A stretch of 22,977 nt of DNA from a virus: positions 1 to 22,977 of IMG/VR virus record IMGVR_UViG_3300032116_001366, one strand, 5' to 3'. The notes under the pieces were generated by a model. The model saw only the letters and a list, made by a program, of their open reading frames with translations, was not told the DNA's origin and made no database searches. This document shows positions 4,367 through 22,976 of this stretch, one piece after another (positions within the stretch are counted from its first letter, which is position 1; the number at the start of each line of letters is the position of its first letter). The position numbers and the translations under genes were made by a program.

Positions 4367-4377
4367 TTCACACTCCC

Positions 4378-5103: not shown

Positions 5104-5104
5104 G

Positions 5105-5347
5105 TCAGTCGTGCTGCGCAGGCCAGCTTTCAGGATCAGCCAGTGCTGCACGAATATCCGACGCCATCGTAGGGTTATCAATCTCAACTGAGTCGGCATA
5201 TGCATTCAATGCGACCAGTGCGTGAGGGACACGCCCCGAGTAATCAAGAACAATATAACGAGCAGTAGGGTTGCAAGGTTTCCCGTCCTTGCGAGTCACG
5301 GTGAAGCGGTCTTCGAAACCACCTTGAACAAATCGACTATCGGTCAT
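5105..5347 (-). CDS. Conserved-looking 80-residue protein inside the deazaguanine cassette
   Basis: An 80-residue protein whose ATG overlaps the end of queD by 11 bases and whose stop is one base from the dpdA start. A segment reads FTVTRKDGKPCNPTARYIVL, followed by a stretch ending in PHALVALNAYA. It therefore has a small alpha-beta fold with a KDGKP turn and an H-A-x-x-A-L-x-x-Y-A helix. From memory this pattern recurs in small phage hypotheticals, but no biochemical function is known to me. Its position, coupled to both queD and dpdA, suggests a partner of DpdA or a precursor-handling protein. A passenger gene is equally possible. The overlap on both sides makes it very likely to be translated. 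Confidence 0.82.
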   Translation of the reverse strand: MTDSRFVQGGFEDRFTVTRKDGKPCNPTARYIVLDYSGRVPHALVALNAYADSVEIDNPTMASDIRAALADPESWPAQHD

Positions 5348-5654
5348 TTTCTATCCTTTCAACATAAGCGTAGATACGCTCAAGAGGGCGCTTGACAGCC
5401 ACAGCTTTACAGCCGTCGAGCGATTGCAGAACAAACTCTGCAATATCTTCGCTCCATGCCAAGTTATCTGGCAGTAGCGAGTGATCTAACGTTTTCAAAA
5501 CGGCGACGAGTTCTTCTTGGAGTTCACTAGCATTGCGACCGGCCAAAAATGTAGCCTCGACCTCCCAAGTGTGGCCGTGAAGCTGGCCGGTAAACTTGTC
5601 CTTATGGGCAGCACAAAAAACTGCACCGACTACGATACGCTTAACTATTTTCAT
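5337..5654 (-). CDS. queD: QueD-like 6-carboxytetrahydropterin synthase, compact, atypical active site
   Basis: QueD makes 6-carboxytetrahydropterin from dihydroneopterin triphosphate. ATG at 5654 is preferred over TTG at 5666 because it overlaps the queE stop (ATGA) and has GGA upstream. This gives 105 residues, shorter than the roughly 120 of E. coli QueD. The zinc ligands H17, H26 and H28 (AHKDK and LHGHTW) are present, as is the catalytic D57-H58 pair (LDHSL). The cysteine that normally precedes LHGH by three residues (CGRLHGH) is replaced by threonine 22 (TGQLHGH). A cysteine at position 14 (VFCAAH) might substitute. The usual C-terminal glutamate motif is also altered (VKRPLERIYA). The family call is firm, but activity is less certain. 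Confidence 0.88.
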   Translation of the reverse strand: MKIVKRIVVGAVFCAAHKDKFTGQLHGHTWEVEATFLAGRNASELQEELVAVLKTLDHSLLPDNLAWSEDIAEFVLQSLDGCKAVAVKRPLERIYAYVERIENDR

Positions 5655-6250
5655 CGTACATTCCAAACCTTATGTGCCTGAATGTTCAAACGCCATTCTG
5701 GGTGTCGATGAACATACTCAAATGCCAGTTTAATGTTTCTTTGAAGGTTCGGCCCGTCCATTGGACTGAGCCACTTGAAGCGAGCATCAATCAAAGTAGC
5801 AACCATCTGAGGACTGATACCTTCTTGAGAGTAAACCAGCTTCAGTTCGTCCGCTGCTCGAACGACAATATCGGTTCCGGCTTTAGGGCTGACGCAGATC
5901 CAATCAACATCTGGTAGAGGTCGCGTGCCATTTGTCTCGACCGCGACTAAGCAACCTAACCCTCGAACGGAATCGACAAGTTGCTGATCCAATTGAAGTG
6001 CCGGTTCACCCCCAGTGAAAATCACAAGCGGTGCCGCGAAGCGCCCAATCGCATCTGTGATTTCACCCAAAGACATACGAGTACCACCGATGAAGTCGGT
6101 ATCGCAAAACCGGCATATCGCAGTTTCTCGATCTGCCTCGCGACCACTCCACAAATTACACCCAGCGAAACGGACAAAAACTGCCGATGTGCCGCTGTTC
6201 GCGCCCTCACCCTGAACGCTATGGAAAATTTCTTTGACTGTATAAGCCAA
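5651..6250 (-). CDS. queE: QueE, radical-SAM 7-carboxy-7-deazaguanine synthase
   Basis: QueE rearranges 6-carboxytetrahydropterin to CDG using a [4Fe-4S] cluster and S-adenosylmethionine. The 199-residue protein starts MAYTVKEIFHSVQGEGANSG, typical of the family. The cluster cysteines are C31, C46 and C49, in the QueE-specific C-x14-C-x2-C arrangement, not the classical C-x3-C-x2-C. GGEP (80-83) and ETNGT are the SAM-binding strands, and SPK plus the C-terminal QAHK complete the pattern. The start is TTG at 6250, with AGGAG 8 bases upstream. The gene leads the cassette about 20 bases after the predicted transcription start in the right 46-bp repeat. No folE was found in the window, so GTP cyclohydrolase I must come from the host or from phage DNA outside this window. 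Confidence 0.96.
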   Translation of the reverse strand: MAYTVKEIFHSVQGEGANSGTSAVFVRFAGCNLWSGREADRETAICRFCDTDFIGGTRMSLGEITDAIGRFAAPLVIFTGGEPALQLDQQLVDSVRGLGCLVAVETNGTRPLPDVDWICVSPKAGTDIVVRAADELKLVYSQEGISPQMVATLIDARFKWLSPMDGPNLQRNIKLAFEYVHRHPEWRLNIQAHKVWNVR

Positions 6251-8807: not shown

Positions 8808-10876
8808 GCGTAAGCCCCCGCGTCAACCGTTCCGCTAGTCTCGCGCGCGGCTGCGGCAAAGTCGCGGGCAAGCGGATATTGGCTAAACAGGTTGCGTGCA
8901 GGCGAGCCGCCTTGCAGATCGTAGTTGCCGCCCGACGAACCCGCGACAGGGCCGGGCAAGGTTGTGGCGCGATCATCGACAAACAGGATATTCCCGCCGT
9001 TGATAACCGAGCCGATCCCCGCGTAAGCCTGACCGAACGACAGCCCGCCGCCGCCGCTGTCCAGATTACGGGCGAAATTGCCCGCGCAGCCGACGCCGTG
9101 GTGGAAGGCGAAGTTGCCGGTGCGGGCACCGTTGCTCATGAACACGTCGCCCTTGGTGTTGATCTGCGGGCCGATATTGCCCTTGAAGCTGACCAGAACG
9201 TGCGTGCGCGCAGTGCCGACCGTATCGTCATAAATGACGTTGTATCGCCCGTAACCTTCAACCCCTGCCGCAGTGTTGAAGTGGCAGACAAGATGCGTCA
9301 GGTTGCCGTTGTCGCTGTCGCCCGCGATGCGGATCGCCGGGTTGCTGGTCGAACTAATCCACGGAACGACGTTCTGCACCACTGCGCCCGCCATGTTCTG
9401 CCCCGCGCTGGCGGTGCGGACGTAAATGGCCGAGTTTGTTCCGGGCGGGCTGGGCAAGTTGTTGTTGTAGATCAGGAAGCCGCGCTGTGCTGCCGGATAG
9501 TCAATCCGCGCAGCGGCAAGGCTGCAACCGATAACATTATAGCCCTCGATTGCGAGATTGTTGAAGCTGCCGGTCAGCCCGCGAATGATGCGATTGTCGC
9601 CAGCGGTGGTGTAAGCAAAGCCGCCGTTGTAGTTGCTCGCCGCCATACCGAAAACGGACAAGTGGGCATTGCTTTTCATCGCGCTCGCCGCGCCCGCGTT
9701 GCTGAAATTAAAGGAGACATTGCGGAACTGCGCGTGAATTTTGCGAGCGCCTTCCCCGAGGAAGCCAAAATCAGCCGTGCGGGTGATCGTCATGTCCTCG
9801 AACATGATCGCATTTTCGCTCGTCACCGCGCCGCTATTGCTTGAAGTCCAGAGGCGAATATCCGCAGTGCCCCATGTGACGTTGGCAGTTGCCCGCGAAA
9901 CATCAGGGTCACGCTCGACGATGATACCTGCCCCGTCCATTCGATAAGTGCCAAAAGACACGCTACCCATGTTCACGCTGTTGGTGATCCGCACGCGAGA
10001 GCCAGACAAGACATTGGTAGAGCCGCTGCCCAGCACCGCCGCGAGCCGCGTGATCGCTCCGCCTACCGTCAGCGCAGGCGAAGCCTTGGCGGTTGCCGCA
10101 TTGGTTGATACCACCGCCGTAGCATCGTTGCCGCTGCTCGAAACGTAAATCAGGTTCGGAGCGGACGCGAGGCCAGTACTCTTGTAAAAGAAGCGATTGG
10201 AAAAACGGAACTCGGTTTCGCTGTTGCTTTCCAGCACAGAACCCGAAACCCCAAACCACGGGAACACCTGCCCTTGCAGCGTAATCGTCGCATCATTGTT
10301 CAGCGAGGTAATATCCAGCGTGCCTGCAAACACCTCGGGTGCCTGCGCATCCTCGCAATAGCTTGAGAGCGTGACTGTGCTAACAGTCTGCCAGGCAGTT
10401 GTATTAGTCCCGTCAGTGGCTCGAACGCGGACGCAAACGACTTGCCGCCCAGCTCGCGCGTCGCGGTGGAACGCGATAATCTCCCAAGGGATACTGTTGC
10501 CAACAACAATACGGTCAGCCATGCCCCAAGTTGCAATCGGCTTGGGGCTAACTACGGCGCTGTTGTTGGTTGCGCCGATGATCGTGTCGGCGGCGTAGAT
10601 GTAGTCCGACACGGCCACCTTGTCTGTGGTGAAGCTTGCCTGATTGGGGAACACCTGCCGCACCCGCTTGGTCAGCAGCAGGGTGTCATTAATGGTGGTC
10701 GCCGTGCCGTTCGCGTCAAACCCTGCGCGGCCCACGGTGAAGGGCGTCAGGCTAAGATCGGTGGGGTTGGCGACGGTTGCCTGCCACCCGTCAGCCGCAA
10801 TCGAAGTGAATGGTGCGCCAATGGGACTCGCTGCCGCAATAACCCCGAAAGACAGGGGCATATTAAAAGTTCTCAT
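8804..10876 (-). CDS. Tail-spike or receptor-binding-like protein, beta-helix rich
   Basis: A 690-residue protein, starting at ATG 10876, which overlaps the stop of the preceding gene (ATGA) and has GGAG 8 bases upstream. It is rich in Asn, Gly, Ser and Thr, with few lysines. The first 250 residues look like a virion-binding or carbohydrate-binding region (ADGWQATVANPTDLSLTPFT). From about residue 250 (LIYVSSSGNDATAVVSTNAA) it shows the repeated short-strand pattern of a right-handed parallel beta-helix, with segments such as IMFEDMTITR and YNVIGCSLAAAR typical of such coils. The C-terminus SSGGNYDLQGGSPARN also occurs in beta-helix proteins. Host-surface binding or depolymerase activity is inferred, and no catalytic residues can be named. 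Confidence 0.78.
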   Translation of the reverse strand: MRTFNMPLSFGVIAAASPIGAPFTSIAADGWQATVANPTDLSLTPFTVGRAGFDANGTATTINDTLLLTKRVRQVFPNQASFTTDKVAVSDYIYAADTIIGATNNSAVVSPKPIATWGMADRIVVGNSIPWEIIAFHRDARAGRQVVCVRVRATDGTNTTAWQTVSTVTLSSYCEDAQAPEVFAGTLDITSLNNDATITLQGQVFPWFGVSGSVLESNSETEFRFSNRFFYKSTGLASAPNLIYVSSSGNDATAVVSTNAATAKASPALTVGGAITRLAAVLGSGSTNVLSGSRVRITNSVNMGSVSFGTYRMDGAGIIVERDPDVSRATANVTWGTADIRLWTSSNSGAVTSENAIMFEDMTITRTADFGFLGEGARKIHAQFRNVSFNFSNAGAASAMKSNAHLSVFGMAASNYNGGFAYTTAGDNRIIRGLTGSFNNLAIEGYNVIGCSLAAARIDYPAAQRGFLIYNNNLPSPPGTNSAIYVRTASAGQNMAGAVVQNVVPWISSTSNPAIRIAGDSDNGNLTHLVCHFNTAAGVEGYGRYNVIYDDTVGTARTHVLVSFKGNIGPQINTKGDVFMSNGARTGNFAFHHGVGCAGNFARNLDSGGGGLSFGQAYAGIGSVINGGNILFVDDRATTLPGPVAGSSGGNYDLQGGSPARNLFSQYPLARDFAAAARETSGTVDAGAYA

Positions 10877-11346
10877 TTCATGTCTCCGGTGAAATACCAT
10901 GTGTTTGCGGCACGCTTTCGGAGTCCTATGACAGAGTGCTTGGCCGAACTTCGACTAAAATTCTCCTTAACTTCCAGAGGTTGCAGGCCCGCGCCCGCAG
11001 TCGGAATAATGTTGCCATCGCCCTTTTGCAAGATTTCAACGAAACAGCCATTCGGCGCATTCAGCGAAGCGTCGCTTGGAATGGTAAGAGTAATGTCGCT
11101 GTTATTGGTAAAAACCAGAATTGCGTTGCAGTTTTCTGAAGATAGAGTGTGAGTCGTTCCCGTAATTACAAAAACGGGAGACGCCGCGCTCGGAGTGTTG
11201 TCTTCAAGCAATTTGGCGATACTCGGAACCGTACCGTTATCGGTTGTCACCACGGTATCGGCGTCGCCGTTAACGATCTGATCGAGTCGATCCATATTCG
11301 TAACCGACTTGGAAACTGCGGCCTGATACTCAGAAGCTGTGGGCAT
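10873..11346 (-). CDS. Tail-fibre-associated small protein
   Basis: A 157-residue protein with a helical N-terminus and the phrase TTDNGTVPSIAKLL, a motif common in the N-terminal parts of phage tail fibres. A small beta-sandwich-like part follows (NNSDITLTIPSDASL, then FVEILQKGDGNIIPTAGAG) and the end is NTWYFTGDMK. Its stop overlaps the start of the tail-spike-like gene, so the two are coupled and probably form a structural pair: a fibre base and its spike. The pattern is familiar from fibre proteins but no named family is claimed. The upstream gap (11347-11404) holds no clear promoter or terminator, so read-through from the repressor gene is possible. Confidence 0.75.
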   Translation of the reverse strand: MPTASEYQAAVSKSVTNMDRLDQIVNGDADTVVTTDNGTVPSIAKLLEDNTPSAASPVFVITGTTHTLSSENCNAILVFTNNSDITLTIPSDASLNAPNGCFVEILQKGDGNIIPTAGAGLQPLEVKENFSRSSAKHSVIGLRKRAANTWYFTGDMK

Positions 11347-12143: not shown

Positions 12144-12161
12144 GTTGAAAAGTGTTTCAAC
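12144..12161. promoter_or_regulatory. 18-bp palindromic operator, probable repressor site
   Basis: GTTGAAAAGTGTTTCAAC has perfect 7-bp arms (GTTGAAA / TTTCAAC) around AGTG. The same word with two changes lies at 19649-19666, over the rightward early promoter, and a half-site lies over the leftward one. The site overlaps the helicase stop codon and lies upstream of the repressor promoter -35 element, a position suited to autoregulation. A second half-site (GTTGAAA) follows at 12172-12178. Confidence 0.65.
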
Positions 12162-13590
12162 TGAACAGAGTGTTGAAATCCACATCGGTCACGATTTCCG
12201 CTTCCACGGCGTCAATGATCGCCCGCTGGTTCGTTTCTTTGCTGTCGAGCGCCGCCACCACTCGCTCATCCACCGTGTCCTCTGCCAGAATCTTGTAGAT
12301 GGCGACGATGTTTTTCTGGCCGGGACGCGGGAGTCGCGCATTCGCCTGAAGGTAGAGTTCAAGGCTCCACGTAAGGTCGAACCAGATGGCGATGTGCCCG
12401 CCATACTGAAGATTGGTGCCGTGACCACCGGACTTCGGGTGCATGAGCAGTTTCTTGATGCGACCCTCATTCCAGTCTCGGATTGCGGTGTCGCACTCGT
12501 TGAAAACCACCGCGTCAGGGTGGCGCTTCAGGATCTGGTCTTTGCTGAACTGGAACCCGTAGAAGATCAGCACCGACTCGCCGTTGGCCTGTTCGATCAA
12601 GTCGTCCAAGGCGTCGAGTTTTGCGGTGTGAACGGCTGCGATACTGCGGTCCTCGCGGTACATCGAGCCGCCGCTGAATTGGAGCAACTTGTTGGTCAGA
12701 ACGCCCGCGTTGACGGCTTCAACGTCATGCAGATCGCTGACAAGGGTTCGTCGGAATCGTTTGTATTCAGCCATCGCCTCGGGCGGCAGTTGCACTTTGA
12801 CGGGGATGTGGACAGGATCTTCGACCAGCTTTCGCGGGGGAATGCTAATCATCACATCTTTCAGCCGCTCCATGATCTCATCATGGGCGTAAGAGCGCGG
12901 CTTGATTTCACGGCTATACTTGTTCTCGTCGAACCAGCGCGCCTTGTAGTCCTCAAGTGTTGTCCCGAGACGTTCACCCTTGTCGATCAGGTAAATCTGC
13001 CCCCAGAGGTCGAGCAGTTCCCCCGGTGTGCCGGTCAACTCTACGACTTTCTTCACTTTCTTGCGGGCTGTGGAGAGAACGCCGAAGGCCGTCTGCTTAC
13101 CACCTTTGCTGACGACAGTGGTGCCGTCTGACCGCTTCCGCTTGGTCTTGGTAGTGCGCTTCTTTCCAGCTTTGAACATGGAGGATTCGTCGATCACCAA
13201 CCCATCCCACGGCCAGTTTTCAACGCTGCCGAGTTCCTTGGAGAGCCAGACTAAGTTTTCCCGGTTGATGATCGTCACCTTGGCATTTTTCGCCAGTGCG
13301 TATTTCCGTGCTGCTGGCGCTCCTACGCAAACAGCGTAGTCGAGGTCGCGCAGATGCTCCCACTCAGCAATTTCGTCGGCCCATGTGTCGCGGGCCACGC
13401 GCAGTGGTGCGATCACCAACCAGCGGTCGATTTCATCGTGCAAATCGACAATCGCGGTCAGAGTTGAGGCGGTCTTACCCCCACCCATGCCAAGGACGAT
13501 CATGCAGCCGTCTTTTTGCTTGATCGTATCGACGATGAAGTTCTGGTCGTCGCGCAGCATCGAGCGGGGTCGAACGGGTCGCTTAATCAT
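12157..13590 (-). CDS. SNF2-type DEAD/DEAH-box helicase or translocase
   Basis: A 477-residue superfamily 2 ATPase of the compact phage SNF2 type. Motif I is GMGGGKT (34-40), motif II is DESS (134-137, in LVIDESSMFK) and motif III is ELTGTP near residue 190. The second RecA-like domain carries HGTNLQYG and an arginine-finger segment, ANARLPRPGQ, at about 410. Such proteins remodel DNA or protein-DNA complexes in phage replication and recombination. It starts just inside the end of the VRR-NUC gene (8-base overlap), a pair often found together. The C-terminus is DFNTLFS, one of the -LF- tips shared with neighbours. The stop overlaps the repressor operator. Confidence 0.93.
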   Translation of the reverse strand: MIKRPVRPRSMLRDDQNFIVDTIKQKDGCMIVLGMGGGKTASTLTAIVDLHDEIDRWLVIAPLRVARDTWADEIAEWEHLRDLDYAVCVGAPAARKYALAKNAKVTIINRENLVWLSKELGSVENWPWDGLVIDESSMFKAGKKRTTKTKRKRSDGTTVVSKGGKQTAFGVLSTARKKVKKVVELTGTPGELLDLWGQIYLIDKGERLGTTLEDYKARWFDENKYSREIKPRSYAHDEIMERLKDVMISIPPRKLVEDPVHIPVKVQLPPEAMAEYKRFRRTLVSDLHDVEAVNAGVLTNKLLQFSGGSMYREDRSIAAVHTAKLDALDDLIEQANGESVLIFYGFQFSKDQILKRHPDAVVFNECDTAIRDWNEGRIKKLLMHPKSGGHGTNLQYGGHIAIWFDLTWSLELYLQANARLPRPGQKNIVAIYKILAEDTVDERVVAALDSKETNQRAIIDAVEAEIVTDVDFNTLFS

Positions 13591-13870
13591 AGAAGCTGAG
13601 TATCCGCTTTGCGTGATCGCGGTCGTTGACCAGATGCACCTTCCAGCCTGCGGCTGCGTATCGCTTATGCTCGCGGGCTTGGAGTGGGTCTGCTGCGTTT
13701 CTGCCGGGGCGCTTGAATTCGATCATCACCAGTTGCCCGTCACGAAAGAAGAAGCGGTCAGGGCACCCACGCCGACCGACATACTGCATCTTGCGGACCA
13801 GCCACCCCTCGCCTTCGGCCCATGTCACCACGTCATCTTCGACGCTGGCTTCGAGTTCCTGCTGTGCCAC
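13583..13870 (-). CDS. VRR-NUC domain nuclease
   Basis: A 95-residue stand-alone VRR-NUC (PD-(D/E)XK) nuclease. GTG at 13870 is preferred because it falls 1 base after the polymerase stop and gives a product starting VAQQELEASVEDDVVTWAEG, exactly where the domain begins; an upstream ATG at 13960 would bury 90 bases in the polymerase gene. The active-site pattern is visible: E near residue 11 (VEDD), GCPDRFF with the metal-binding Asp, and the E-x-K pair in VMIEFKRPG. Related phage enzymes act on branched DNA, and small ones often pair with SNF2 helicases, as here. Resolution of replication or packaging intermediates is the likely job. Confidence 0.9.
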   Translation of the reverse strand: MAQQELEASVEDDVVTWAEGEGWLVRKMQYVGRRGCPDRFFFRDGQLVMIEFKRPGRNAADPLQAREHKRYAAAGWKVHLVNDRDHAKRILSFYD

Positions 13871-13871
13871 G

Positions 13872-15803
13872 TTACACCGCCAGTGCGAACCAGAGGGGTG
13901 CGCTCCATTTATACAACCTGATCGGCTTGATGGGGTCGGGGCGACGGTCGAAGCCGACATCCATAAGCGTTTCGCGCGCTTCCTGAATGTAGCGCTCGTA
14001 GTCGATTAGGTGCGCGGGAAACTCGTCGGGCAGATCCATCATCGGAATGCAGCCGTCAGACTTCGGAACCTTCTTGAAGTTGCCAGTGCGCGGGTCAGGC
14101 TTCTTGTAGAAGATTTCCTCGCCGTCGATCCCCCAGATGTAGCGCACGACCTTTCCGAGATATTGACCGCGCCATGTCCCGCCGCCTTGCACGTTCACCA
14201 CGGTCACGAAGCCCCTGATGTCGGTGCAGCCGCGTATCGTGTCTTCGATAGGAACTCCCTTCGTGATGAAGTCCACCACGGCGTCCGAGACGATGGTAGC
14301 TTGGGGGTTCTTCATCAGAGTACCGCGCTTATCCTTGACGCGGCCATTCTTGTCGCGCTCGCGCCACGGGTTTGCAATGGCACCTTTCAGCTTTGCTGAG
14401 CCGTCTGGTTTGACCGCGATGTAGGTGTTGACCGACTGGTTGTAGAGGGCTGAATATTCGGTATCCTCAAGCACGAATCCAGTGTCGGCTTCCCACTGCT
14501 TCGTGATGCCCTTGAGCGTGTCTTCCAGATCGACAGGGCAGCGGAACACCACGCCATCGGTGTTGGCCGACACGACCGAGATACCGGCGCGCTCGGCCCG
14601 CTCGATGAGCATGAGCAGCGACAACTGACCTGTCAGTGTCACGGCAATGAGCAGGTGCGGTGCGTAGAGGATGGAATACTTTGACCCCAACTTCCCGAAG
14701 ACTCCGTTCAAGGCGATCTTCATGCCCTGATCGACCACCTTGTTGCCTGCCTGCTTGGCGGCAATACGGTCGTCCCTGATCTTGCGATACACGTCGAGGA
14801 ATACCGGCCCGAGCGACTTCGGATACAGGCCCGAGCCGAGAATGATCGCCGGATAGTAGCTGGCGACATCGTAATCTCGCATGAAGTGTTCTTCGTCGGC
14901 GTGAACCGCACGGTTCTTCTCGGTGCTGTGCAGCCCGCCAATACCCATCGCGTAGGTGGTGTCTCCAATGATAATATTCGCGTCACTCAACCACTTCGGC
15001 AGTTCGACCTTACCTTCGCGGGTGACATAGAACTCGGTGCCGCGAACGCGCTCCAAGATGCTGTGCAACTGGTCGCTCTCGAACGCCAGATAGGGCGGCA
15101 CCTTGTATTGAAACGAGGTTCCCGATGGCGTCTCGACCTTGTTGACGCGCTGCCCTGTTACCTGCTCGACGCGCTTCTTGATGATACCTTCACCAATCTG
15201 CGAGTCCGACTTGGACAGGAAGTCAGTCTCGTATTCCTTGGACAGCAGGGCGCGCATTTCCAGCGCCTCGCGCAACTCGTCGAACAGAGAATGCGTGTTG
15301 ATGAGGTCGTTGCCCATGTAGGACAGCACATGATCCATTTCTTCTTCGGTCAGGTGCGTGTCGGGGTCGTATGGAAGATCCTGCATCTTCTTGGCGTGCA
15401 TCCGGCCTGCGAGCGTCTTCAGCGACGCAAAAGCGTTCGGCTGCGGCTCGATGAGGTCGATGAAACTCCATTTGCGAGGCACCACCAGTCCGAGTTGCTG
15501 TTCGACCATCCAGTATTTCACGCCGCCGACAATGATGCGGTCGTTGGTGCGCTTCAGTTGCTCGTTGTCCTGCCCGTCGATCACTGCGGCGCACATCGGC
15601 GCGTCGTATGACTGCCAGTTGTAGCCGACGATAGTGTTGTTCCTGAGCAGCGACACCAAGCGGTCGCGGTCGATCTGGCGACGACGACTATGCTCCATCA
15701 CCAGCGTCTTCCCATCGCTGACACGGCGGAAACCGATGGACCAAAAATTTTTATAACACTCAGTGTCGCTAATAAGCGTTTTTTCCGCGTCGAAGAAGGT
15801 CAT
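13872..15803 (-). CDS. Family-B-like DNA polymerase with 3'-5' exonuclease domain
   Basis: The probable replicative polymerase, 643 residues. The N-terminal exonuclease shows D13-x-E15 (SDTECY), N62 to D67 (YNWQSYD) and a YMGND segment near 162-166. The polymerase motifs are A at 311-321 (YDVASYYPAII), B at 362-370 (KIALNGVFG) and C at 412-417 (SANTDG). Motif C lacks the classical DTD-S wording, having N-T-D-G, but keeps the key aspartate. The protein is shorter than cellular family B enzymes and has no obvious terminal-protein insertion. The ATG at 15803 overlaps the exonuclease stop (ATGA). The neighbours are the SSB, DUF2800 nuclease and exonuclease found with phage replisomes. Confidence 0.88.
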   Translation of the reverse strand: MTFFDAEKTLISDTECYKNFWSIGFRRVSDGKTLVMEHSRRRQIDRDRLVSLLRNNTIVGYNWQSYDAPMCAAVIDGQDNEQLKRTNDRIIVGGVKYWMVEQQLGLVVPRKWSFIDLIEPQPNAFASLKTLAGRMHAKKMQDLPYDPDTHLTEEEMDHVLSYMGNDLINTHSLFDELREALEMRALLSKEYETDFLSKSDSQIGEGIIKKRVEQVTGQRVNKVETPSGTSFQYKVPPYLAFESDQLHSILERVRGTEFYVTREGKVELPKWLSDANIIIGDTTYAMGIGGLHSTEKNRAVHADEEHFMRDYDVASYYPAIILGSGLYPKSLGPVFLDVYRKIRDDRIAAKQAGNKVVDQGMKIALNGVFGKLGSKYSILYAPHLLIAVTLTGQLSLLMLIERAERAGISVVSANTDGVVFRCPVDLEDTLKGITKQWEADTGFVLEDTEYSALYNQSVNTYIAVKPDGSAKLKGAIANPWRERDKNGRVKDKRGTLMKNPQATIVSDAVVDFITKGVPIEDTIRGCTDIRGFVTVVNVQGGGTWRGQYLGKVVRYIWGIDGEEIFYKKPDPRTGNFKKVPKSDGCIPMMDLPDEFPAHLIDYERYIQEARETLMDVGFDRRPDPIKPIRLYKWSAPLWFALAV

Positions 15804-16360
15804 CCGAAGATGTCATCCTCATCATCGGTCGCTACGGCACGGCTTCCCTTCAGCGCCATCCACATTTCCGAAACCCAGCGAGCCTGCGACTTCGCATCAT
15901 CGAGCGCATTGTGCGCTACGCCCTGCTGCACCTTGGTATCGACGCCCAGATGCGAGCCGAGATCCTTGATGGTGCGACAGTCGCGCACGTCCCAGAACTT
16001 CCACGGGGCGCTGCCACCCAATCGCCCGTAGGTGTATTCAAGGATGGTGATGTCGAAAGTCGCCCCATTGCCCCAAACAGGTGAACCGCTGCGGTAGTAA
16101 GCGTCGAACCGCTTCAACGCATCAAAGACACTTTCGCCACCTTTGATCGCGGCCATGCGCGCAGCGTCTCCCTGCTGCATCCACCACTTCACGGTACTAC
16201 CATCCGCTCTCCCGACCTTGAAGGAATCTTCAATGTTGATGGAAGCGTAAAACTCGTCACCCAACTTGCCAGTATCGGGGTCAAAATAGACCGCTCCGAT
16301 GGCGACAACCGGCGCGTCGAAACGCTGACCCATTGTTTCAAGGTCAATCATAATGTGCAT
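15800..16360 (-). CDS. DnaQ/RNase T-like 3'-5' exonuclease with acidic C-terminal tip
   Basis: A 186-residue DEDD exonuclease. ATG at 16360 is chosen because GGGA lies 8 bases upstream and the product then begins MHIMIDLETM; the upstream ATG at 16390 adds ten residues with no homologous look. D6 and E8 (IDLET) form the first acidic pair, the NGATFDI segment carries the second Asp, and AHNALDDAKSQA carries the final H and D. The phage T4 DexA-like group is the best match in style. The C-terminus ends DDEDDIFG. Coupled translation with the polymerase suggests a proofreading, trimming or recombination role. Confidence 0.9.
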   Translation of the reverse strand: MHIMIDLETMGQRFDAPVVAIGAVYFDPDTGKLGDEFYASINIEDSFKVGRADGSTVKWWMQQGDAARMAAIKGGESVFDALKRFDAYYRSGSPVWGNGATFDITILEYTYGRLGGSAPWKFWDVRDCRTIKDLGSHLGVDTKVQQGVAHNALDDAKSQARWVSEMWMALKGSRAVATDDEDDIFG

Positions 16361-16414
16361 AAGAAATTCCCGAAAAGTGAGGGGCGACACCGCAGCGCCG
16401 CCCCAAGGTGGAAG

Positions 16415-17128
16415 TCAGCCGAACAGATCGTCGTCGTCCGAGCCACCCGACGCGGTGTCACCATCGTCGAGGTCGTCCAGATCGTCATTCAGATCGTCGA
16501 AGTCATCAGCATCCTCGTCGCTGATACGGTAGCCACCGGCCATGCGATCACCAGTCTGACGCGACCGGATGAGGTGAATGGTGCTGAAGATGCCGTCGCC
16601 GCCGTTGTCAGCGCCGGTCACACCGTAGAACTCGACCTTCACATCAGCATAACAGCCGCTGTAGCACACATCGAGAATCTTGCTGTTCGACGCCTCAGCA
16701 CCCTTGTCGGGATTCCAGACCCAGTTCTTCTTGCGATCCATGATCGCAGGACGCTTCGGGTTCTTGGTGCCACCGGGGCCGTAGCCGGGAACGACCATGC
16801 AGCCCGCGTAGCCGGTGTAAACCTCATCATCGGCATTGGTGAACTTCTCACCCTTGCGATACTGGATACGCTTCGGATCGTCTTCGAGGATCTTCTTCCA
16901 CTTGTCGGGCTTGCCCCACGTTTCTTCCGACGCTGCGGTGATCGCAGCCAACACGGCCTTCTTGTTGGCTTCGAATTCCGGCGTACTGGGTTCGAGCAGC
17001 AGGTTGCAGCCGTGCTTCGGCACGCCGTTCTTGACGGTCGCCTTGGCCTCACCGAGCGAGTCAGTGAAGGACAGGCGCACGTTCTTCAGCGTGGCGATGC
17101 GGGGGTTCTTCTTCTTTTCATCAGTCAT
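16415..17128 (-). CDS. Single-stranded DNA-binding protein, DUF2815 (Enc34 type)
   Basis: A 237-residue protein of the phage Enc34 SSB family (formerly DUF2815), which has an OB-like fold and coats single-stranded DNA. ATG at 17128 has GGAG 7 bases upstream, and the product begins MTDEKKKNPRIATLKNVRLS, the normal family start. Visible landmarks are HGCNLLLEPSTPEFE, then KWKKILEDD, GCMVVPGYGPGG and the C-terminal FSTIHLIRSRQTGDRMAGGY. The tail after about residue 200 is strongly acidic, with DDFDDLNDDLDDLDD and a final SDDDDLFG, as in SSBs that recruit partners with an acidic tip. It lies between the DUF2800 nuclease and the exonuclease genes. Confidence 0.93.
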   Translation of the reverse strand: MTDEKKKNPRIATLKNVRLSFTDSLGEAKATVKNGVPKHGCNLLLEPSTPEFEANKKAVLAAITAASEETWGKPDKWKKILEDDPKRIQYRKGEKFTNADDEVYTGYAGCMVVPGYGPGGTKNPKRPAIMDRKKNWVWNPDKGAEASNSKILDVCYSGCYADVKVEFYGVTGADNGGDGIFSTIHLIRSRQTGDRMAGGYRISDEDADDFDDLNDDLDDLDDGDTASGGSDDDDLFG

Positions 17129-17166
17129 ACAGTTACTCCGTGGCACAGTGGCACAGTTTCTCAGTG

Positions 17167-18435
17167 TCAATCGTCGTCCAGATCGTCGAAGTCCCCTGCG
17201 TCTGTGAACGACTCCAGCGCGGGTCTATCGTCAGCTTCGTCAACCAGTGTCGGCTTGCGAGCGCCTACGATTACGTGTTCCTCGAAGATGGGCTTCCAAT
17301 CCTCGGGAGAGATAGCCTTACCCGCTTGTGTTGGGGTAATCAATTTCTTGGTGAAACTTTTCTCAGCGAGACGGGCAGTCAGCGCCTTCTCAGCCGCCTT
17401 CGGGTCTTTCCACTTGTCGGGGTTCTTCCGACCCTCGACCAGTTTCAGACCCGCTGTGTCGTCGCCGTTCATCGCCGCTTGGAACAGACTCGCATGAACG
17501 CTTTCGAGCCACTTCTTGATGAGCGGCGCATGTTCCATAATGACGCGGCGACGTGCTGGCGTGAAACCCTGTGGATCTGGGAGCGCCAAGTCTTCCAGAT
17601 CGTCGAGGTCGCTGAAGTCGTCCAGTCCAAGGAAGGACAGATTGAACTTGTGATAGGCGTCGCAGTCGTCTTTACCAGCGCACCACAGACACGCATCGAC
17701 GCTGGGATTGCGCGGCGGCTCGGGCTGGCGTGTCGCCTCTGCTGCGGCTCGGGCTTCCTCGCCAAACTCTAACAGTTCTCCGAGCGTCACCGTCCAAAAG
17801 CCGCCACCTGCTGCGTTGCGCGGCTGGTCGATGTGGATGGTCACGGGGAACGCCGGATCGGTGATGTGCGATGCGTACTTCTTCCATGCCCCGAGCGCGT
17901 AGAGGCGCAGTTGCTTGTTGCCGACTGCTTGAACCGCGATGCCCCTGCCCCATTTGAGGTCAGACACGAGGATTCCGCTGTCAGACAAGATGACACGATC
18001 CATCGTCCCGAACTGGTTCTCCCCGAGCCAGTCTGAGAGATCGACGCGCGCTTCGCCGTAGAACGTGCCTTCCTGCTCTCGAATCCAGTCGATGCCGGGT
18101 TGCAGTGCGTCGGCGTCGTCCTCAGTCCATGTGAACGACCAGTTGACCGTTTCCACTTCGTCGGTCTTGATCCACCTGCCCGACGAGTCCTTCACGCTTT
18201 TGCGGCGCTTGCCGGTGATGTTCGTCACCGTGCCAATCATGTCGTAGGCGTCGAAGCCGTGGGTCAGGCAGAAGTCGCTGATCGCATGGGCTGCGGTGCC
18301 CTCGGCTGCGGCCTCATTGTCTTCGTTGAGGTACTGCGCGTTGACATCAGGATAGGCGGCGCACTGCATCCAGCCCGAAGCTGATGATGGAGAGAGTTTG
18401 GCGTGGGCGGTGTAGTCGCGCTGCTCAACAGTCAT
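17167..18435 (-). CDS. DUF2800 Cas4-like PD-(D/E)XK nuclease
   Basis: A 422-residue protein. ATG at 18435 overlaps the previous gene's stop (ATGA) with AGAGG upstream, and gives MTVEQRDYTAHAKLSPSSAS; a longer start at 18465 is less likely. LSPSSASGWMQC opens the DUF2800/Cas4-like fold, followed by the EGTAAH helix. The nuclease core at about residues 145-175 includes GTMDRVIL and LVSDLKWGRG, with Asp and Lys as metal-site residues. A cysteine cluster (CLWCAGKDDC, near residue 255) resembles the Fe-S anchor of Cas4/AddB-type nucleases, although the fourth cysteine may lie at the N-terminus. Such genes almost always neighbour DUF2815 SSBs. The C-terminus is acidic (GDFDDLDDD) without the LF ending. 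Confidence 0.92.
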   Translation of the reverse strand: MTVEQRDYTAHAKLSPSSASGWMQCAAYPDVNAQYLNEDNEAAAEGTAAHAISDFCLTHGFDAYDMIGTVTNITGKRRKSVKDSSGRWIKTDEVETVNWSFTWTEDDADALQPGIDWIREQEGTFYGEARVDLSDWLGENQFGTMDRVILSDSGILVSDLKWGRGIAVQAVGNKQLRLYALGAWKKYASHITDPAFPVTIHIDQPRNAAGGGFWTVTLGELLEFGEEARAAAEATRQPEPPRNPSVDACLWCAGKDDCDAYHKFNLSFLGLDDFSDLDDLEDLALPDPQGFTPARRRVIMEHAPLIKKWLESVHASLFQAAMNGDDTAGLKLVEGRKNPDKWKDPKAAEKALTARLAEKSFTKKLITPTQAGKAISPEDWKPIFEEHVIVGARKPTLVDEADDRPALESFTDAGDFDDLDDD

Positions 18436-18830
18436 CCGTACCTCTTCTGTGCCCATGCCGACCAAGCGTCGATAAGTTCCTGCAATGTCGAGAAGCGTTC
18501 GTCACCGACAAATCGCAGATTGGTCGGATCGCCCTCGAATTCGAATGCGTCGGTGTTGCAGAGAAGTGTCGCGCAGAGCAGTTGCCCCGGTGTACCCTTG
18601 AAATTGGGATCACAAGACGGCGGGACCGGACTCTGGTTCAACCGCACCAAAAAGCAGATGATTTCCAAATCCAACTTCTCGAAATATCCCCCGCAGTGGA
18701 CCCCGAGCCAATCCCACGGGTCGAATTGTGTGATGGCCTCATCGTCAGTTTCTCGCTGACACCTAGCGCGAAATGCTGCTTCCCGTTCGTCTTCATACGC
18801 TTGTAGCGCGCGATACTCTTTCCAACCCAT
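18432..18830 (-). CDS. Hypothetical early protein, 132 residues
   Basis: The frame starts at ATG 18830 with GGGAG upstream and ends in an ATGA overlap with the DUF2800 gene, so it is part of the early leftward operon. The product begins MGWKEYRALQAYEDEREAAF, a charged helix. A middle part follows with FDPWDWLGVHCGGYFEKLD and then CDPNFKGTPGQLLCATLLC, giving six cysteines in all. It ends in a helix, ELIDAWSAWAQKRYG. The cysteines do not form clean CxxC pairs. I do not recognise the family. Location suggests a DNA-metabolism accessory. Confidence 0.75.
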   Translation of the reverse strand: MGWKEYRALQAYEDEREAAFRARCQRETDDEAITQFDPWDWLGVHCGGYFEKLDLEIICFLVRLNQSPVPPSCDPNFKGTPGQLLCATLLCNTDAFEFEGDPTNLRFVGDERFSTLQELIDAWSAWAQKRYG

Positions 18831-18854
18831 TATCTCATCACTCCCTCAAAAGGA

Positions 18855-18888
18855 TTGCCCCGCCACACAGTCCCATGCAGCGGGGCAA
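18855..18888 (-). terminator. Hairpin after the first early gene, partial terminator
   Basis: TTGCCCCGC (18855-18863) and GCGGGGCAA (18880-18888) form a perfect 9-bp stem with a 16-base loop. On the minus strand the tail is TCCTTTTG. It sits between the acidic-tailed protein gene and the rest of the operon, so it may attenuate downstream transcription so that the first gene is made in excess. Confidence 0.6.
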
Positions 18889-18893
18889 ACTCA

Positions 18894-19508
18894 TCAGCAG
18901 AACAGATCGTCGTCGTCTTCGGCAGCGGCTTCAGCGACCTGCTCGACCACCGGCTCATCCTGAAGCGGATCGCCAGCAAAGTCATACGGGGCGTCATAGT
19001 TGACCGGCAGACCCTTCACATGGCGCTTGAGGAAGAACATCGCCTTGTCTTCGTCTTCGGGCTTCAGTTCGCTCATCTTCCCCGCTCCGAAGTGACCAAG
19101 GATTCCCATGATGGCGACACCGCGCTTCTTGTGTTCGTCGCTACCCTTCTCGGCCTTGTCCAGCCACCGCTTCGACACGTCCTTGAACGGCGGCGGTGCG
19201 TCAGGCGCGGCGGCAGGGGTTTCAGACGCAGTTGTGGCAGCGGCCTCCCCAGACGCCGTGTCGGCAGGTTTTTCGGATGTAGTCGGGGTATCGGTCGCGG
19301 GGGTCTCCGCTGCGGGTTCGGCTTCCGGCTCGGGGTTCTTCTTCGGGCGACCGCGAGTCGGCTTGTCGGGGTTTCCCGCCGCCACCTTCTCGATTGCGGC
19401 CTGCTGACCAGCCAGCAGTCGCTCCTGATTGTGTGCGACCTTTTCCATGATCGCGGCGAGAGCGGTCATCGCCTCGGTGTTGGCGGTGAGTGCTTGTTCA
19501 AGGCTCAT
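18894..19508 (-). CDS. Acidic-tailed, coiled-coil early protein (possible replication scaffold)
   Basis: A 204-residue protein, first gene of the leftward early operon. ATG at 19508 (MSLEQALTANTEAMTALAAI) is preferred because GAAGGGA precedes it; in-frame starts at 19529 and 19625 lack a ribosome-binding site, and 19625 lies upstream of the predicted promoter. Residues 1-45 form a helix or coiled coil. Residues 50-110 are a Pro/Ala/Glu-rich linker with a basic GRPKKN patch. A compact domain follows (KDVSKRWLDKAEKGSDEHKK, then ILGHFGAGKMSEL). The C-terminus is DDDDLFC, almost the same as the SSB tip. The coding bases for the two tips are nearly identical as well (GAACAGATCGTCGTCGTC). Function is unknown; a scaffold or SSB competitor is inference. 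Confidence 0.8.
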   Translation of the reverse strand: MSLEQALTANTEAMTALAAIMEKVAHNQERLLAGQQAAIEKVAAGNPDKPTRGRPKKNPEPEAEPAAETPATDTPTTSEKPADTASGEAAATTASETPAAAPDAPPPFKDVSKRWLDKAEKGSDEHKKRGVAIMGILGHFGAGKMSELKPEDEDKAMFFLKRHVKGLPVNYDAPYDFAGDPLQDEPVVEQVAEAAAEDDDDLFC

Positions 19509-19590
19509 AGGTAAGTTGGTCCCTTCCATGTTGGGGTTGATGTTTTTCGACGTTCCGGTGCGGCTGTGAGCCAACGCCGAGTCGCTGCAC

Positions 19591-19619
19591 CTTAAAGCAC
19601 AGCGGCGTTGCTGTTTCAA
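19591..19619 (-). promoter_or_regulatory. Leftward early promoter (pL-like)
   Basis: On the minus strand TTGAAA (19619-19614), a 17-base spacer and TTTAAG (19596-19591). The -35 lies in GGTTGAAAC, one half of the repressor operator. It would drive the long replication operon down to the helicase. The rest of the non-coding gap 19509-19713 holds only this control region and leader sequences. Confidence 0.6.
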
Positions 19620-19648
19620 CCCCATAGTGAAAAAACCATCACCACAGG

Positions 19649-19678
19649 GTTGAAAAGTGTTTCGGCTGGCGCTACACC
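19649..19678 (+). promoter_or_regulatory. Rightward early promoter (pR-like) with overlapping operator
   Basis: TTGAAA (19650-19655), a 17-base spacer and TACACC (19673-19678). The operator GTTGAAAAGTGTTTCGGC (19649-19666) covers the -35 element and most of the spacer, so repressor binding would block RNA polymerase. It serves the Cro-like and primase genes; transcription should start near 19685. Confidence 0.65.
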
Positions 19679-19713
19679 CCTAACCGAGAAACCTTCAACT
19701 AGGAGAATACCCA

Positions 19714-20025
19714 ATGGCGTCCAGCCGCCGCGATCAGTGGGCCGATGGCCCGCTCTACACGTTCCTCAACGACATTTTCCCCACCTACCGGACAGTCCTC
19801 GGCAAGTTCGACGTGCTTCGTCTCGCCAAGGAAATGGGTCTGTCACATGAGGCCGTCTACAAGTGGCTGCGCAAGCGCGAGGGTCGCTGCCTGACGCCGC
19901 AGAACGCCGAACGGATTCTCGAACTCGCGCTCGAATCGCCCAATGTCGATGCGCTGGTGGACAGCGGCGAACCACGACCGACGATTCGTGACTTCGACAT
20001 CTTCGTCTATGGCAAGGCCACCTGA
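19714..20025 (+). CDS. Cro-like helix-turn-helix protein
   Basis: A 103-residue protein, first gene on the rightward early transcript, starting at ATG 19714 with AGGAG 8 bases upstream. The segment FDVLRLAKEMGLSHEAVYKW is a helix-turn-helix: LAKEMGLS, then recognition helix HEAVYKWLRK. The following TPQNAERILELA helix is typical of XRE or Cro-type regulators. The C-terminal 35 residues (ALVDSGEPRPTIRDFDIFVY) are extra. By position it is the anti-repressor or Cro equivalent, opposing the repressor at the shared operators. The two proteins differ greatly in sequence, so shared operator binding is inferred from genetics of similar phages only. Confidence 0.82.
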   Translation: MASSRRDQWADGPLYTFLNDIFPTYRTVLGKFDVLRLAKEMGLSHEAVYKWLRKREGRCLTPQNAERILELALESPNVDALVDSGEPRPTIRDFDIFVYGKAT

Positions 20026-20072
20026 CGCTCCGCTTTCTTCAGGACTTACACCTATGAAAGCGGGACGATTTT

Positions 20073-22568
20073 GTGAACGAATTTGATGATTCCATTCTAG
20101 CGACAGCGAGGGAACTGAGCAGTCTCGGTTTTTCCCTTCACTGGTTGCACCAGCGACAGAAGCGCCCCATTGGGAAGGACTGGTCCGAGCGGGGTTTCCA
20201 GACCTTCGAGGCGCTGCGCAATACGCATACTGGCGGCACCAACATCGGTGTTCGCCTTGGCGAGCCTTCGCGTCTCGCTGACGACCGTTACCTTCATGTG
20301 ATCGACGCTGACATTCGTGTTGCCAGTCTCGCTGACGAGGCGATGGAGAAGCTGCGCGAACTGCTGCCTGTCGATCCTGACACGCTGCCAATGGTGCGCT
20401 CGGGGTCAGGTGGCGCGTCGTTCCACCTCTACTTCGTCACCGACAAGCCGTTTCGTTCGAAGCGTCTCGCTGTCTCTGAGGGCAAGCACCGCGACAGCGA
20501 GGGTCGTTGGCACTACGACTGGGAATTGGAACTGTTCGGCACAGGCAAGCAAGTCGTGTTGCCGCCGTCGATCCATCCGAGCGGAAAACCCTATGTCTGG
20601 GAGCGCGAGTTCGACAGTTTCGCAGTCGAGTTCGACGACGCCTACCGGATTTCGAGCGACGATCTTGCGCGTCTCGCTGTCGCTGAGCATGACCACTTCG
20701 ATTACGAGGATGTCCCTGCCCTAACCTTCAAGTCGGGGCAGATCGAACGCATCTTTGCTGACATCGAGTCGAGCCGCATCGACGACTACCATGATTGGGT
20801 GTTGTTGGGTCAGGCGATCCACCACCAGTTTGGCGGCAGCGACGAGGGCTTCGAGATTTGGGACCGCTTGTCACAGCAGTCCGAGAAATACAGCAGCCGT
20901 GGGATGCGTCGCAAATATGCGTCCTTCGGCAAGTATCGCGGTCGCCCTGTTACGATGGCGACCATCAGCCAGTGGGCACAGGAAGCCCGCCTCGCGGCGC
21001 TCGCTGATGATTTTGACGACTTGGAGGATCTGGACGATGAGGAAGCGGAAACTGCTGGACGAAGTGATCTTCATTCAGTCGGGGGTGACTTTGCGCACCT
21101 TTTTGATGATGAATCTGACGATGCTGGCGGTGACGCTGGGGATAGCGTGGGCGGTGAATCAGACGACCCCTTCGACGCCCCCGAACCCGTCAAACCTGAC
21201 CCAGCAATCAAGTGGCAGTCGCTGCTCGATGTGAACGAAGAAGGTGCCATCAAAGGCACGCTGCACAACATCGCCCTGATCGTCGAGAACGACCCGCGCA
21301 GCAAGGGAATCATCCGCTACAACGCCTTCGCGGACAAGCTGGTGCAGCACACCACTCCCGGCACGCTGACCCGTCGCAAGAAAGCCGCCAAGCCGACCAT
21401 CCAGTTGGAAGGTGAAATCTGGCGCGTGCGCGACCCGATGAACGGCGACCCGTGGATCGACACCAAGGACGCGCTGCTGCGTCGCATGATCGAAGCGCCC
21501 AAGACTCAAGGTGGCTACGGGATCAAGGTGTCCGACCGTGACCTTGTTGCGGCCATCGAAATCTGTGCTGCGCGCAACTCGTTTCATCCGGTGCAAGACT
21601 ACCTGAAGTCTCTCACATGGGACGGCCAGCCGCGCATCGACAACCTGTTCATCGAATACCTGAAGACCCCGAACAACGCCTACTATCGCACCGTGGCACG
21701 GCTGAGCCTGATCGGCGCTGTGACGCGCGTGTTCGAGCCGGGTCACAAGTTCGACTTCTGCGCCATTCTCGAAGGGCTTCAGGGTCGCCGCAAGTCCACC
21801 TTCATCAAGGTGCTGGGCCGCGACTGGTCAGCGGAACTGGACGGCGACTTCGCTGACGACCGTGCCATGATCGAGAAGATGCAGGGTGCATGGATTCTGG
21901 AAATCCCTGAACTGTCAGGCTTCACCAAAGCCGAGGTCAACCACATCAAGGCGTTCATGACTCGTCAGGAAGACCGCGCTCGCATGGCCTATGCTCGCCG
22001 CGTGTCGATCTTCCAGCGTCAGTGCATCTTCATGGGATCTACGAACGACCGGAAGTACCTGAAGGATGAGACGGGTGGGCGGCGTTTCTGGCCGGTCGAA
22101 TGTACGCTCGGACCTGATGAAGAAATCGACACCGACCGGCTGGCCGAGAACGTCGATCAGATTTGGGCAGAAGCGTATCAAGCCTATCTGGCGATGCGCG
22201 CCGAGCAGCCCTTCGGTACGTTGCCGCTCTACATCCGTGACCGTGATGCTGCCAAGATTGCGCTTGCGCTGCAAGAAAGCCGCCGTGTTGAGAGCATGAC
22301 CGACAATCTGCGCGGGATGATCGAGGAATGGCTGAACAAGCCCCACTATACCGGCGACATCGCTGACGGCGATGCTCAGGTGCGGACGCAGACCTGTGCC
22401 GTTGAAATCTGGGTCGAGTGCTTCGGCGGTGATCCCAAGAAGTTCCCCTACCCTGAGTCGGTCAACATCAACAAGGCGATGCGCTCGCTTGAAGGGTGGC
22501 AGGAAGTCGGACAACGGCGTTTCAAGAAGTATGGGCGTCAGAAGGGGTACGAAAGGGTGTCGGGCTAA
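20073..22568 (+). CDS. Prim-pol / PriCT / VirE-type primase-helicase
   Basis: An 831-residue replication initiator, starting at GTG 20073 with GGGA about 8 bases upstream. Residues 1-190 form a bifunctional primase-polymerase domain: IGKDWSERGF, the metal aspartates D78 and D80 (VIDADI), SGSGGASFHLYF with H118, and TGKQVVLPPSIHPSGKP. Residues 220-310 are a PriCT domain (DDYHDWVLLGQAIHHQFGGS). An acidic low-complexity linker follows (about 310-370, DDFDDLEDLDDEEAE and FAHLFDDESDD). The C-terminal helicase is of the VirE/D5 type, with Walker A GLQGRRKST at about 567-575, ILEIPEL as Walker B, then GGRRFWPVE. It should prime and unwind at the phage origin, which may lie nearby but was not recognised. 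Confidence 0.94.
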   Translation: MNEFDDSILATARELSSLGFSLHWLHQRQKRPIGKDWSERGFQTFEALRNTHTGGTNIGVRLGEPSRLADDRYLHVIDADIRVASLADEAMEKLRELLPVDPDTLPMVRSGSGGASFHLYFVTDKPFRSKRLAVSEGKHRDSEGRWHYDWELELFGTGKQVVLPPSIHPSGKPYVWEREFDSFAVEFDDAYRISSDDLARLAVAEHDHFDYEDVPALTFKSGQIERIFADIESSRIDDYHDWVLLGQAIHHQFGGSDEGFEIWDRLSQQSEKYSSRGMRRKYASFGKYRGRPVTMATISQWAQEARLAALADDFDDLEDLDDEEAETAGRSDLHSVGGDFAHLFDDESDDAGGDAGDSVGGESDDPFDAPEPVKPDPAIKWQSLLDVNEEGAIKGTLHNIALIVENDPRSKGIIRYNAFADKLVQHTTPGTLTRRKKAAKPTIQLEGEIWRVRDPMNGDPWIDTKDALLRRMIEAPKTQGGYGIKVSDRDLVAAIEICAARNSFHPVQDYLKSLTWDGQPRIDNLFIEYLKTPNNAYYRTVARLSLIGAVTRVFEPGHKFDFCAILEGLQGRRKSTFIKVLGRDWSAELDGDFADDRAMIEKMQGAWILEIPELSGFTKAEVNHIKAFMTRQEDRARMAYARRVSIFQRQCIFMGSTNDRKYLKDETGGRRFWPVECTLGPDEEIDTDRLAENVDQIWAEAYQAYLAMRAEQPFGTLPLYIRDRDAAKIALALQESRRVESMTDNLRGMIEEWLNKPHYTGDIADGDAQVRTQTCAVEIWVECFGGDPKKFPYPESVNINKAMRSLEGWQEVGQRRFKKYGRQKGYERVSG

Positions 22569-22577
22569 GCGACACCC
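22555..22577. terminator. Hairpin between convergent genes
   Basis: GGGTGTCG (22555-22562) and CGACACCC (22570-22577) pair perfectly around a 7-base loop that contains the primase TAA stop. There is no real T-run on the plus strand; the minus side has only TTTCG. The site between two convergent genes favours a bidirectional terminator, of uncertain strength. Confidence 0.45.
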
Positions 22578-22583
22578 CTCTAC

Positions 22584-22976
22584 TCAATCGAACAGGAAAT
22601 CGAAGTCGGCTGGAACTGCGAAAGTGGTTCTGGCCGATTTTACGTGCGCTGGAACGCATTGTCCTCGGTTCGTGTAGCGCCAGTTGTCGCCGCATTCGCA
22701 GGGTAGCCCGCGATAGCGATGTGCGCCTAACATCTTAGCAACTTCCCGCATCTTTCGATCAGATTTGTGGGTGAGAACTGGAATCATTTTTCCGCTGATA
22801 AGCAGACTAGACCTTTCCTTTACGAAAACCTTCTGATTACCTCTGTGGCTACCCCAAATCAGTTCGAATGAATTGCAGCCTTCGCAAGCAGCATTTTCAG
22901 ATTTGTACAAGTTACATCCGCACTCCGAACACAAGTCGCCATAATAGTGATGCTGACCAAGCTTAACAGCCTTCAC
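22584..22976 (-). CDS. Protein with duplicated zinc-ribbon modules, 5' end uncertain
   Basis: At least 130 residues, reading leftward and convergent with the primase gene. The first possible start is GTG at 22976, at the window edge, so the gene may begin further right. Two similar modules are visible: LGQHHYYGDLCSECGCNLY with CEGC near residue 32, and LGAHRYRGLPCECGDNWRYT with QCVPAH near 105. The pattern of aromatic-G, two cysteines plus G, R-Y-x-N and a final cysteine resembles the zinc modules of phage HNH or endonuclease VII-type proteins, but no nuclease core is seen. The coding DNA is more A+T-rich than the primase gene, suggesting a separate origin. The C-terminus ends DFDFLFD. Confidence 0.75.
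   Translation of the reverse strand: MKAVKLGQHHYYGDLCSECGCNLYKSENAACEGCNSFELIWGSHRGNQKVFVKERSSLLISGKMIPVLTHKSDRKMREVAKMLGAHRYRGLPCECGDNWRYTNRGQCVPAHVKSARTTFAVPADFDFLFD

Follow-up and report, generated by a model that had tools for sequence, protein, structure and literature searches.

The window analyzed here, the whole of the DNA under study, is a virus fragment of 22,977 bases with 26 called genes. Gene order and sequence similarity assign it to a Casjensviridae-like phage, whose head genes lie outside the fragment. The gene order compared was primase/HTH/coiled-coil/DUF2800/SSB/exonuclease/polymerase/VRR/helicase/CI/integrase/TerS/TerL, with synteny to RcSalem, RHph_X2_30, AchV4, Phobos and Ruegeria V18, and the order of the replication module recurs in these phages as well as in PspYZU01, all of them Casjensviridae. 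The terminase and integrase side carries the terminase subunits, queC, a DpdA-like gene, queD, queE, an integrase and tail-like genes, and the replication side carries a CI-like repressor, an SNF2 helicase, a VRR nuclease, a family B-type polymerase and an RNase T-like exonuclease. The window also encodes a gp2.5-type SSB, a DUF2800 Cas4-like nuclease, a small protein, a coiled-coil protein and an HTH protein, and the primase-polymerase/VapE helicase is located on the strand opposite to the replication genes. The genes from queC to queE (Table 1) suggest that this Casjensviridae-like phage, a temperate one, modifies its DNA with 7-deazaguanine.

Some variation in gene content was observed at fixed positions. 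Replicative polymerases at one syntenic place are non-homologous, being of the family B type in the window and of family A in V18, Enc34 and Phobos (compared at 13872-15803 of the window and 9025-11271 of locus L009). In locus L006, a homing-endonuclease match (phrog_314; 9087-9962) stands at the position held by the exonuclease in the window.

Table 1. Positions of the tip-bearing proteins and other features of the window.
Feature	Position	Strand	Sequence features	Tip status
T7 gp2.5-type SSB (DUF2815/Enc34 family)	16415-17170	(-)	ends SDDDDLFG; start probably 17128	core member
Coiled-coil protein	18894-19625	(-)	ends EDDDDLFC; start probably 19529	core member
RNase T/Rv2179c-like 3'-5' exonuclease	15800-16390	(-)	PF16473 1.2e-54; ends DDEDDIFG	core member
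SNF2-type helicase	12157-13590	(-)	ends VDFNTLFS	variant tip probable
DUF2800 Cas4-like nuclease	17167-18465	(-)	PF10926 8.4e-63; ends DFDDLDDD; internal DDFSDLDDLEDL	
Primase-polymerase/VapE helicase	20073-22568	(+)	linker motifs DDFDDLEDLDDEE and GDFAHLFDDE	no terminal tip
Small terminase (TerS)	2609-3355	(-)	N-terminal DDFDALFDDE	
DpdA-like 7-deazaguanine DNA transglycosylase	4378-5205	(-)	ends DPFELLFT	weak candidate member
Putative zinc protein	22584-22976	(-)	ends ADFDFLFD; extends to fragment end	candidate member
Family B-type DNA polymerase	13872-15803	(-)	phrog_1252	no tip
Overlap of polymerase and VRR nuclease ORFs	13872-13960		89 bases, different frame	
queC, DpdA-like, queD and queE genes	3716-6250		between terminase and integrase	

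Tip-bearing proteins of the window

A sequence-only reading of this DNA had listed independent proteins that end in similar acidic, LF-type tips. Every C-terminal tip that it quoted (SSB, coiled-coil protein, exonuclease, helicase, zinc protein and DpdA) was present, as were the two internal motifs, FAHLFDDE in the linker of the primase and DFDALFDDE near the start of TerS. Membership of the SSB, the coiled-coil protein and the exonuclease is solid, that of the SNF2 helicase is probable and that of DpdA is weak; the list was partly too wide in taking in the zinc protein and DpdA, and it could not include RdgC or the post-capsid-gene protein, which are both absent from this fragment.

Profile, fold and acidic C-terminal tail together identified the SSB as a T7-type (DUF2815/Enc34) protein, with PF10991 at 1.6e-15, a profile match to the Enc34 SSB 5odj at 1.8e-52 and Foldseek matches to 4klk, 4jg2, 5odj (2.9e-10) and 1je5 (1.1e-4). 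Its AF2 model has a mean pLDDT of 88 and a tail of low confidence (55-68), a value that says nothing on docking to another chain. The coiled-coil protein comprises a long N-terminal helix, a disordered linker, a small helical domain and the acidic tail; no fold match was found for it, and in the relatives scanned it gave no Pfam family and, for some, only unnamed PHROGs. In locus L018, the SSB ends in SDDDLFG and the homologue of the coiled-coil protein in DEDDDIFA.

Homologues of the exonuclease carry the tip of their own genome, for example DDDLGI, DIDLLG, DIDDI or LDDLLG. The helicase tip is altered in the two nearest relatives, to FDFEAMFS (76% identity) and TFESLLG (72%), and lost further away. 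For DpdA, the homologue in L098 ends in DDFEDFL beside an SSB ending in DDFD, and the homologue of phage BTP1, outside the family, is without a tip-like end; no homologue of the putative zinc protein was found among the fetched loci. The exact terminal tip is absent from the primase, TerS and DUF2800 nuclease of the window. The DUF2800 nuclease bears a genome-specific tip in many relatives and a family-type EFDDLD end in the clade of the window, the primases of relatives have terminal tips, unlike that of the window, and TerS has a C-terminal tip in other clades (Chi, Enc34, L065, L032 and others). Polymerase termini in relatives gave no robust tip match.

The pattern [DE]x0-3[LIM]Fx0-1-end occurs in 6 of the 26 called genes of the window and in 46 of 5266 genes (0.87%) in other loci, an over-representation of about 26-fold with a binomial P of about 7e-8 (for 6 of 25), for a pattern defined post hoc. 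Because it was set after the list had been seen, relatives were used as an independent test.

One shared tip per genome in related phages

Shared tips were found in the phages Chi, Enc34, Seifer, BUCT551, Phobos and V18 and across some 60 loci, with up to nine unrelated DNA-handling proteins per phage sharing an end. The set that tends to share one tip consists of the SSB, the upstream coiled-coil protein, the primase, the DUF2800 nuclease, the exonuclease, RdgC, TerS and the post-capsid protein, and small unassigned ORFs also carry it. The tip itself is a property of the genome: DDDLFG in the window, DDDLLG in V18, DGLI in Phobos, DDEV in Chi and DDEI in BUCT551.

In V18, the ends are IEDLLG (primase), DDDILG (coiled-coil protein), VDDLLG (DUF2800), DDDLLG (SSB) and GEDLLG (post-capsid protein). 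Phobos has DGLI on the coiled-coil protein, the SSB and the post-capsid protein and EDLI on the helicase, RdgC and a small early protein, with eight LI- or LL-ended proteins in total. Nine proteins of Salmonella phage Chi end in acidic residues followed by V, seven proteins of Aeromonas phage BUCT551 have a [DE]I end, and Hafnia phage Enc34 encodes, in its first 50 kb, seven proteins with the acidic-plus-V end seen in Chi, RdgC being the eighth. In Klebsiella phage Seifer, DDV or DEV ends the primase, coiled-coil protein, DUF2800 nuclease, SSB and TerS, and RdgC ends in DDEV. In five members of the Casjensviridae (Chi, Enc34, Seifer, Aeromonas A18P4 and Phobos) RdgC ends in the tip of its own genome, which is not so for the RdgC of phage H66, outside the family. 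In GU169904 and OR850247, which are labelled as Staphylococcus phage, RdgC is 97-98% identical to that of Chi; these records are probably mislabelled or contaminated.

Tips are concentrated on DNA-transaction and packaging proteins, while structural proteins and control enzymes are without them, and, as in T7, an acidic, hydrophobic-ended C-terminal tail is common to at least two replication proteins of one genome. No genome-wide shared tip was found among the proteins listed for T7 or for JG012 and AH03, which have a similar polymerase and lie outside the family, and none was found in Firmicutes and marine DUF2815 phages. Conservation of the tips in close homologues, on which the sequence-only reading had staked its proposal, took an informative form: the exact letters vary, and in each relative the whole set has shifted to one new version of them.

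Further motifs of similar type were observed away from the C-terminus. TerS N-termini of many relatives carry a DDxLLG/DDLIG-type motif, nearly uniform as DDxLLG in L106-L112, L117, L175, L065 and others. The primase linker of V18 contains three copies of DDLLG or DGLLG, and the corresponding motif is DDLL in RcSalem and DDIL in RHph_X2_30. N-termini of the HTH protein, encoded next to the primase, include SDDLGLDD (L106), ADDDFGLDD (L179) and DHDLIGG (L109). Elsewhere, the helicase of Pseudomonas phage JG012 (L005, 9877-11652) ends in DLDDDIPF, and several marine-phage primases (L128, L136, L143 and L161) end in DVPF or FVPF; these near copies of the bacterial SSB tip represent possible mimicry of the host SSB.

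Within-genome matching and concerted change

Loci were collected from IMG/VR and GTDB contigs by scans with helicase and polymerase alignments, since those of DUF2800 and SSB showed too much diversity for this purpose. Genes were called automatically and assigned with HMMs, the assignment being loose for the fast-evolving coiled-coil protein, and the loci, some of them partial, were thinned to <85% SSB identity. The last four residues of the SSB and of a second protein were scored with BLOSUM62, and pairs from the same genome were compared with all cross-genome pairings.

Tip sharing within related genomes was far above the cross-genome controls, and this result is decisive. Between SSB and coiled-coil tips, the score was 9.5 in the same genome and 1.0 across genomes (Z 14.8, 85 loci), in permutation statistics that retain some relatedness between genomes. 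The primase (Z 7.1), TerS (6.1), the DUF2800 nuclease (5.4) and the exonuclease (4.4) also matched the SSB, as did the post-capsid protein (Z 3.2, from five loci only), and the match of the helicase family was marginal. For polymerase B, a p of 0.01 at the 85% identity threshold gave way to nothing at a strict 50%. No tip signal was detected for polymerase A, VRR, HTH, CI, integrase, TerL, portal, MCP, protease or decoration protein. Single members lack the tip in some genomes; by the cut used, the SSB matches the coiled-coil protein in 63 of the 85 loci, which include non-family phages without sharing; in the first, smaller set, matching of the SSB with the coiled-coil protein and with the primase persisted below 45% SSB identity. 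When an exact terminal dipeptide in acidic context was demanded, 92 genes matched the SSB of their genome, where 7.2 were expected, and the count stayed at or below 35 in all 20,000 permutations.

The tips vary from genome to genome, and their change is concerted. Among 20 disjoint nearest pairs in which the SSB ends differ, the coiled-coil end follows the SSB end in eight and is swapped in none. Synonymous codons vary between the tip copies of one genome, the final Val in Chi being encoded by GTA, GTT, GTG or GTC, and such differences place selection at the protein rather than the DNA level. A shared DNA repeat or recent gene conversion as the origin of the tips was ruled out by the same differences.

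A probable shared docking tag and its candidate partner

Taken as sequence evidence, these patterns make it probable that the tip is a phage-lineage-specific shared docking tag, a candidate for binding one common partner. The tip would be a C-terminal short linear docking motif on otherwise unrelated DNA-transaction proteins, formed by several Asp/Glu, one to three hydrophobic residues and sometimes a final Gly or Ala, and usually placed on an acidic, probably disordered tail. All copies in one genome would bind one pocket on one partner, presumably phage-encoded, which would keep them alike and may gather replication, recombination and packaging factors at the phage DNA. If the pocket changed, the tips would have to follow, so that each phage lineage would acquire its own address. 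The common docking tag for such factors envisaged by the sequence-only reading is strongly supported by within-genome sharing, with the correction that its letters are not family-wide. Rather more tentatively, each Casjensviridae lineage may have a private address code, in which one phage-encoded receptor recruits the entire protein set by its tip, receptor and tips co-diverge and the DNA factory is insulated from that of a co-infecting relative.

The leading candidate for the partner, possible though doubtful, is the groove of the gp2.5-like SSB. It leads since tails of T7-type SSBs enter neighbour grooves in crystals, as described for the tail of the Enc34 SSB (PMC5686142), and since the SSB core tracks the tips of other proteins when other genes are allowed for (partial Mantel p 0.002-0.004, eleven families tested). 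Such tracking was also seen for TerS and, weakly, for the HTH protein, and the SSB result is accordingly not specific. When candidate receptors were compared with tip type column by column, the association was diffuse, with scattered columns and no localised pocket. A cluster in the HTH protein (F17/N19/I21) was considered as a tip-associated site and was unconvincing when the alignment rows were read.

The T7 arrangement, with the DNA polymerase of the phage as the hub, is unlikely here. In T7, the acidic Phe-ended tails of gp2.5 (DGDF) and gp4 (NDTDF) both engage gp5, which has no such end, basic patches of gp5 bind the gp4 tails (PMC12593628), and the polymerases of the Casjensviridae are likewise without a tip; however, the DDDLLG tip occurs beside PolA in V18 and beside the non-homologous PolB in L108, and neither polymerase family tracks tips in the Mantel test, which together disfavor this hub, and TerS and the post-capsid protein bear the tip too. 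The DnaN clamp or another host protein, for which the tips would be divergent clamp-binding peptides, is a distinctly unlikely partner. DDDLFG and LLG-type tips are partly like the QL[SD]LF consensus, and T4 gp33 and gp55 bind gp45 by a C-terminal LDFL (PMC9690074), but DDEV, DFNIG and DGFGD fall outside that consensus, the window tips have no Gln and LF is absent from most family tips. Moreover, phages that share a host have different tips, DDV/DEV in Seifer against DLV/ELI in N133 on K. pneumoniae, and a single Rhodobacter strain has two phages, RcSalem and RcCWillis, that also differ in their tips, which argues against any host receptor. The likeness to clamp-binding (QL[SD]LF) or bacterial SSB (DDDIPF) motifs that the sequence-only reading had noted is thus not a family rule, and no window protein ends in IPF or PF.

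It is very improbable that the tips have no common partner and are generic acidic tails serving DNA mimicry, solubility or protease protection, shared through gene conversion or bias. Many tips are indeed very acidic, and the acidic tail of the Enc34 SSB modulates DNA binding (PMC5686142). Against this, proteins of one genome agree in the very hydrophobic residues at their ends, which change in concert, the codon differences between copies oppose recent gene conversion, and structural proteins and control enzymes lack such tails. Encapsulin cargo has C-terminal loading peptides, and the tip is found on the post-capsid-gene protein in several phages; even so, a role of the tips as cargo-loading peptides that bring early proteins into the capsid is extremely improbable, as published virion mass spectrometry of one relative, AchV4, listed the post-capsid protein and none of SSB, coiled-coil protein, DUF2800 nuclease and primase (PMC7996906, Table 1).

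If the docking-tag reading is true, sequence alone would predict which unknown genes join the phage DNA-processing machinery, replication and packaging would be linked by one motif, and these phages would hold a natural record of how a short motif evolves in concert at as many as nine loci of one genome. Chi and other laboratory phages would allow an immediate test, and crystal structures exist for the Enc34 SSB. No earlier report of a shared phage C-terminal motif of this kind was found in the open-access literature searched; other journals may carry one.

Comparison with known systems

Bacterial SSB recruits its partners by a tip (DDDIPF) that forms the hydrophobic end of an acidic, disordered tail. 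The Casjensviridae tips resemble it in the acidic disordered tail and hydrophobic end and differ in lacking the IPF end and in their arrangement: in bacteria one tip serves many receptors, whereas in Casjensviridae many proteins bear the tip, which points to one receptor. The Enc34 SSB (ORF6) belongs to the same protein family as the SSB studied here, and the passages that describe it, which place its tail in the groove of a neighbour in the crystal, treat that tail as a property of the SSB and make no mention of sharing with other Enc34 proteins (PMC5686142).

By analogy, the tails of T7 gp2.5 and gp4 and the gp45-binding tails of T4 are small-scale precedents. As in T4, where several phage proteins dock on one phage hub by a similar C-terminal peptide (PMC9690074), one peptide type is distributed over several proteins; in contrast, the Casjensviridae replication modules inspected showed no clamp gene, and their tips are without a single family-wide consensus. 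T7 likewise places one acidic tail end on two non-homologous replication proteins, and the family SSB is a structural homologue of gp2.5 (1je5 match). However, T7 involves two proteins and one known partner, while in Casjensviridae seven to nine proteins are involved, including packaging and recombination factors, the tips vary between related phages and the polymerases come from two unrelated families.
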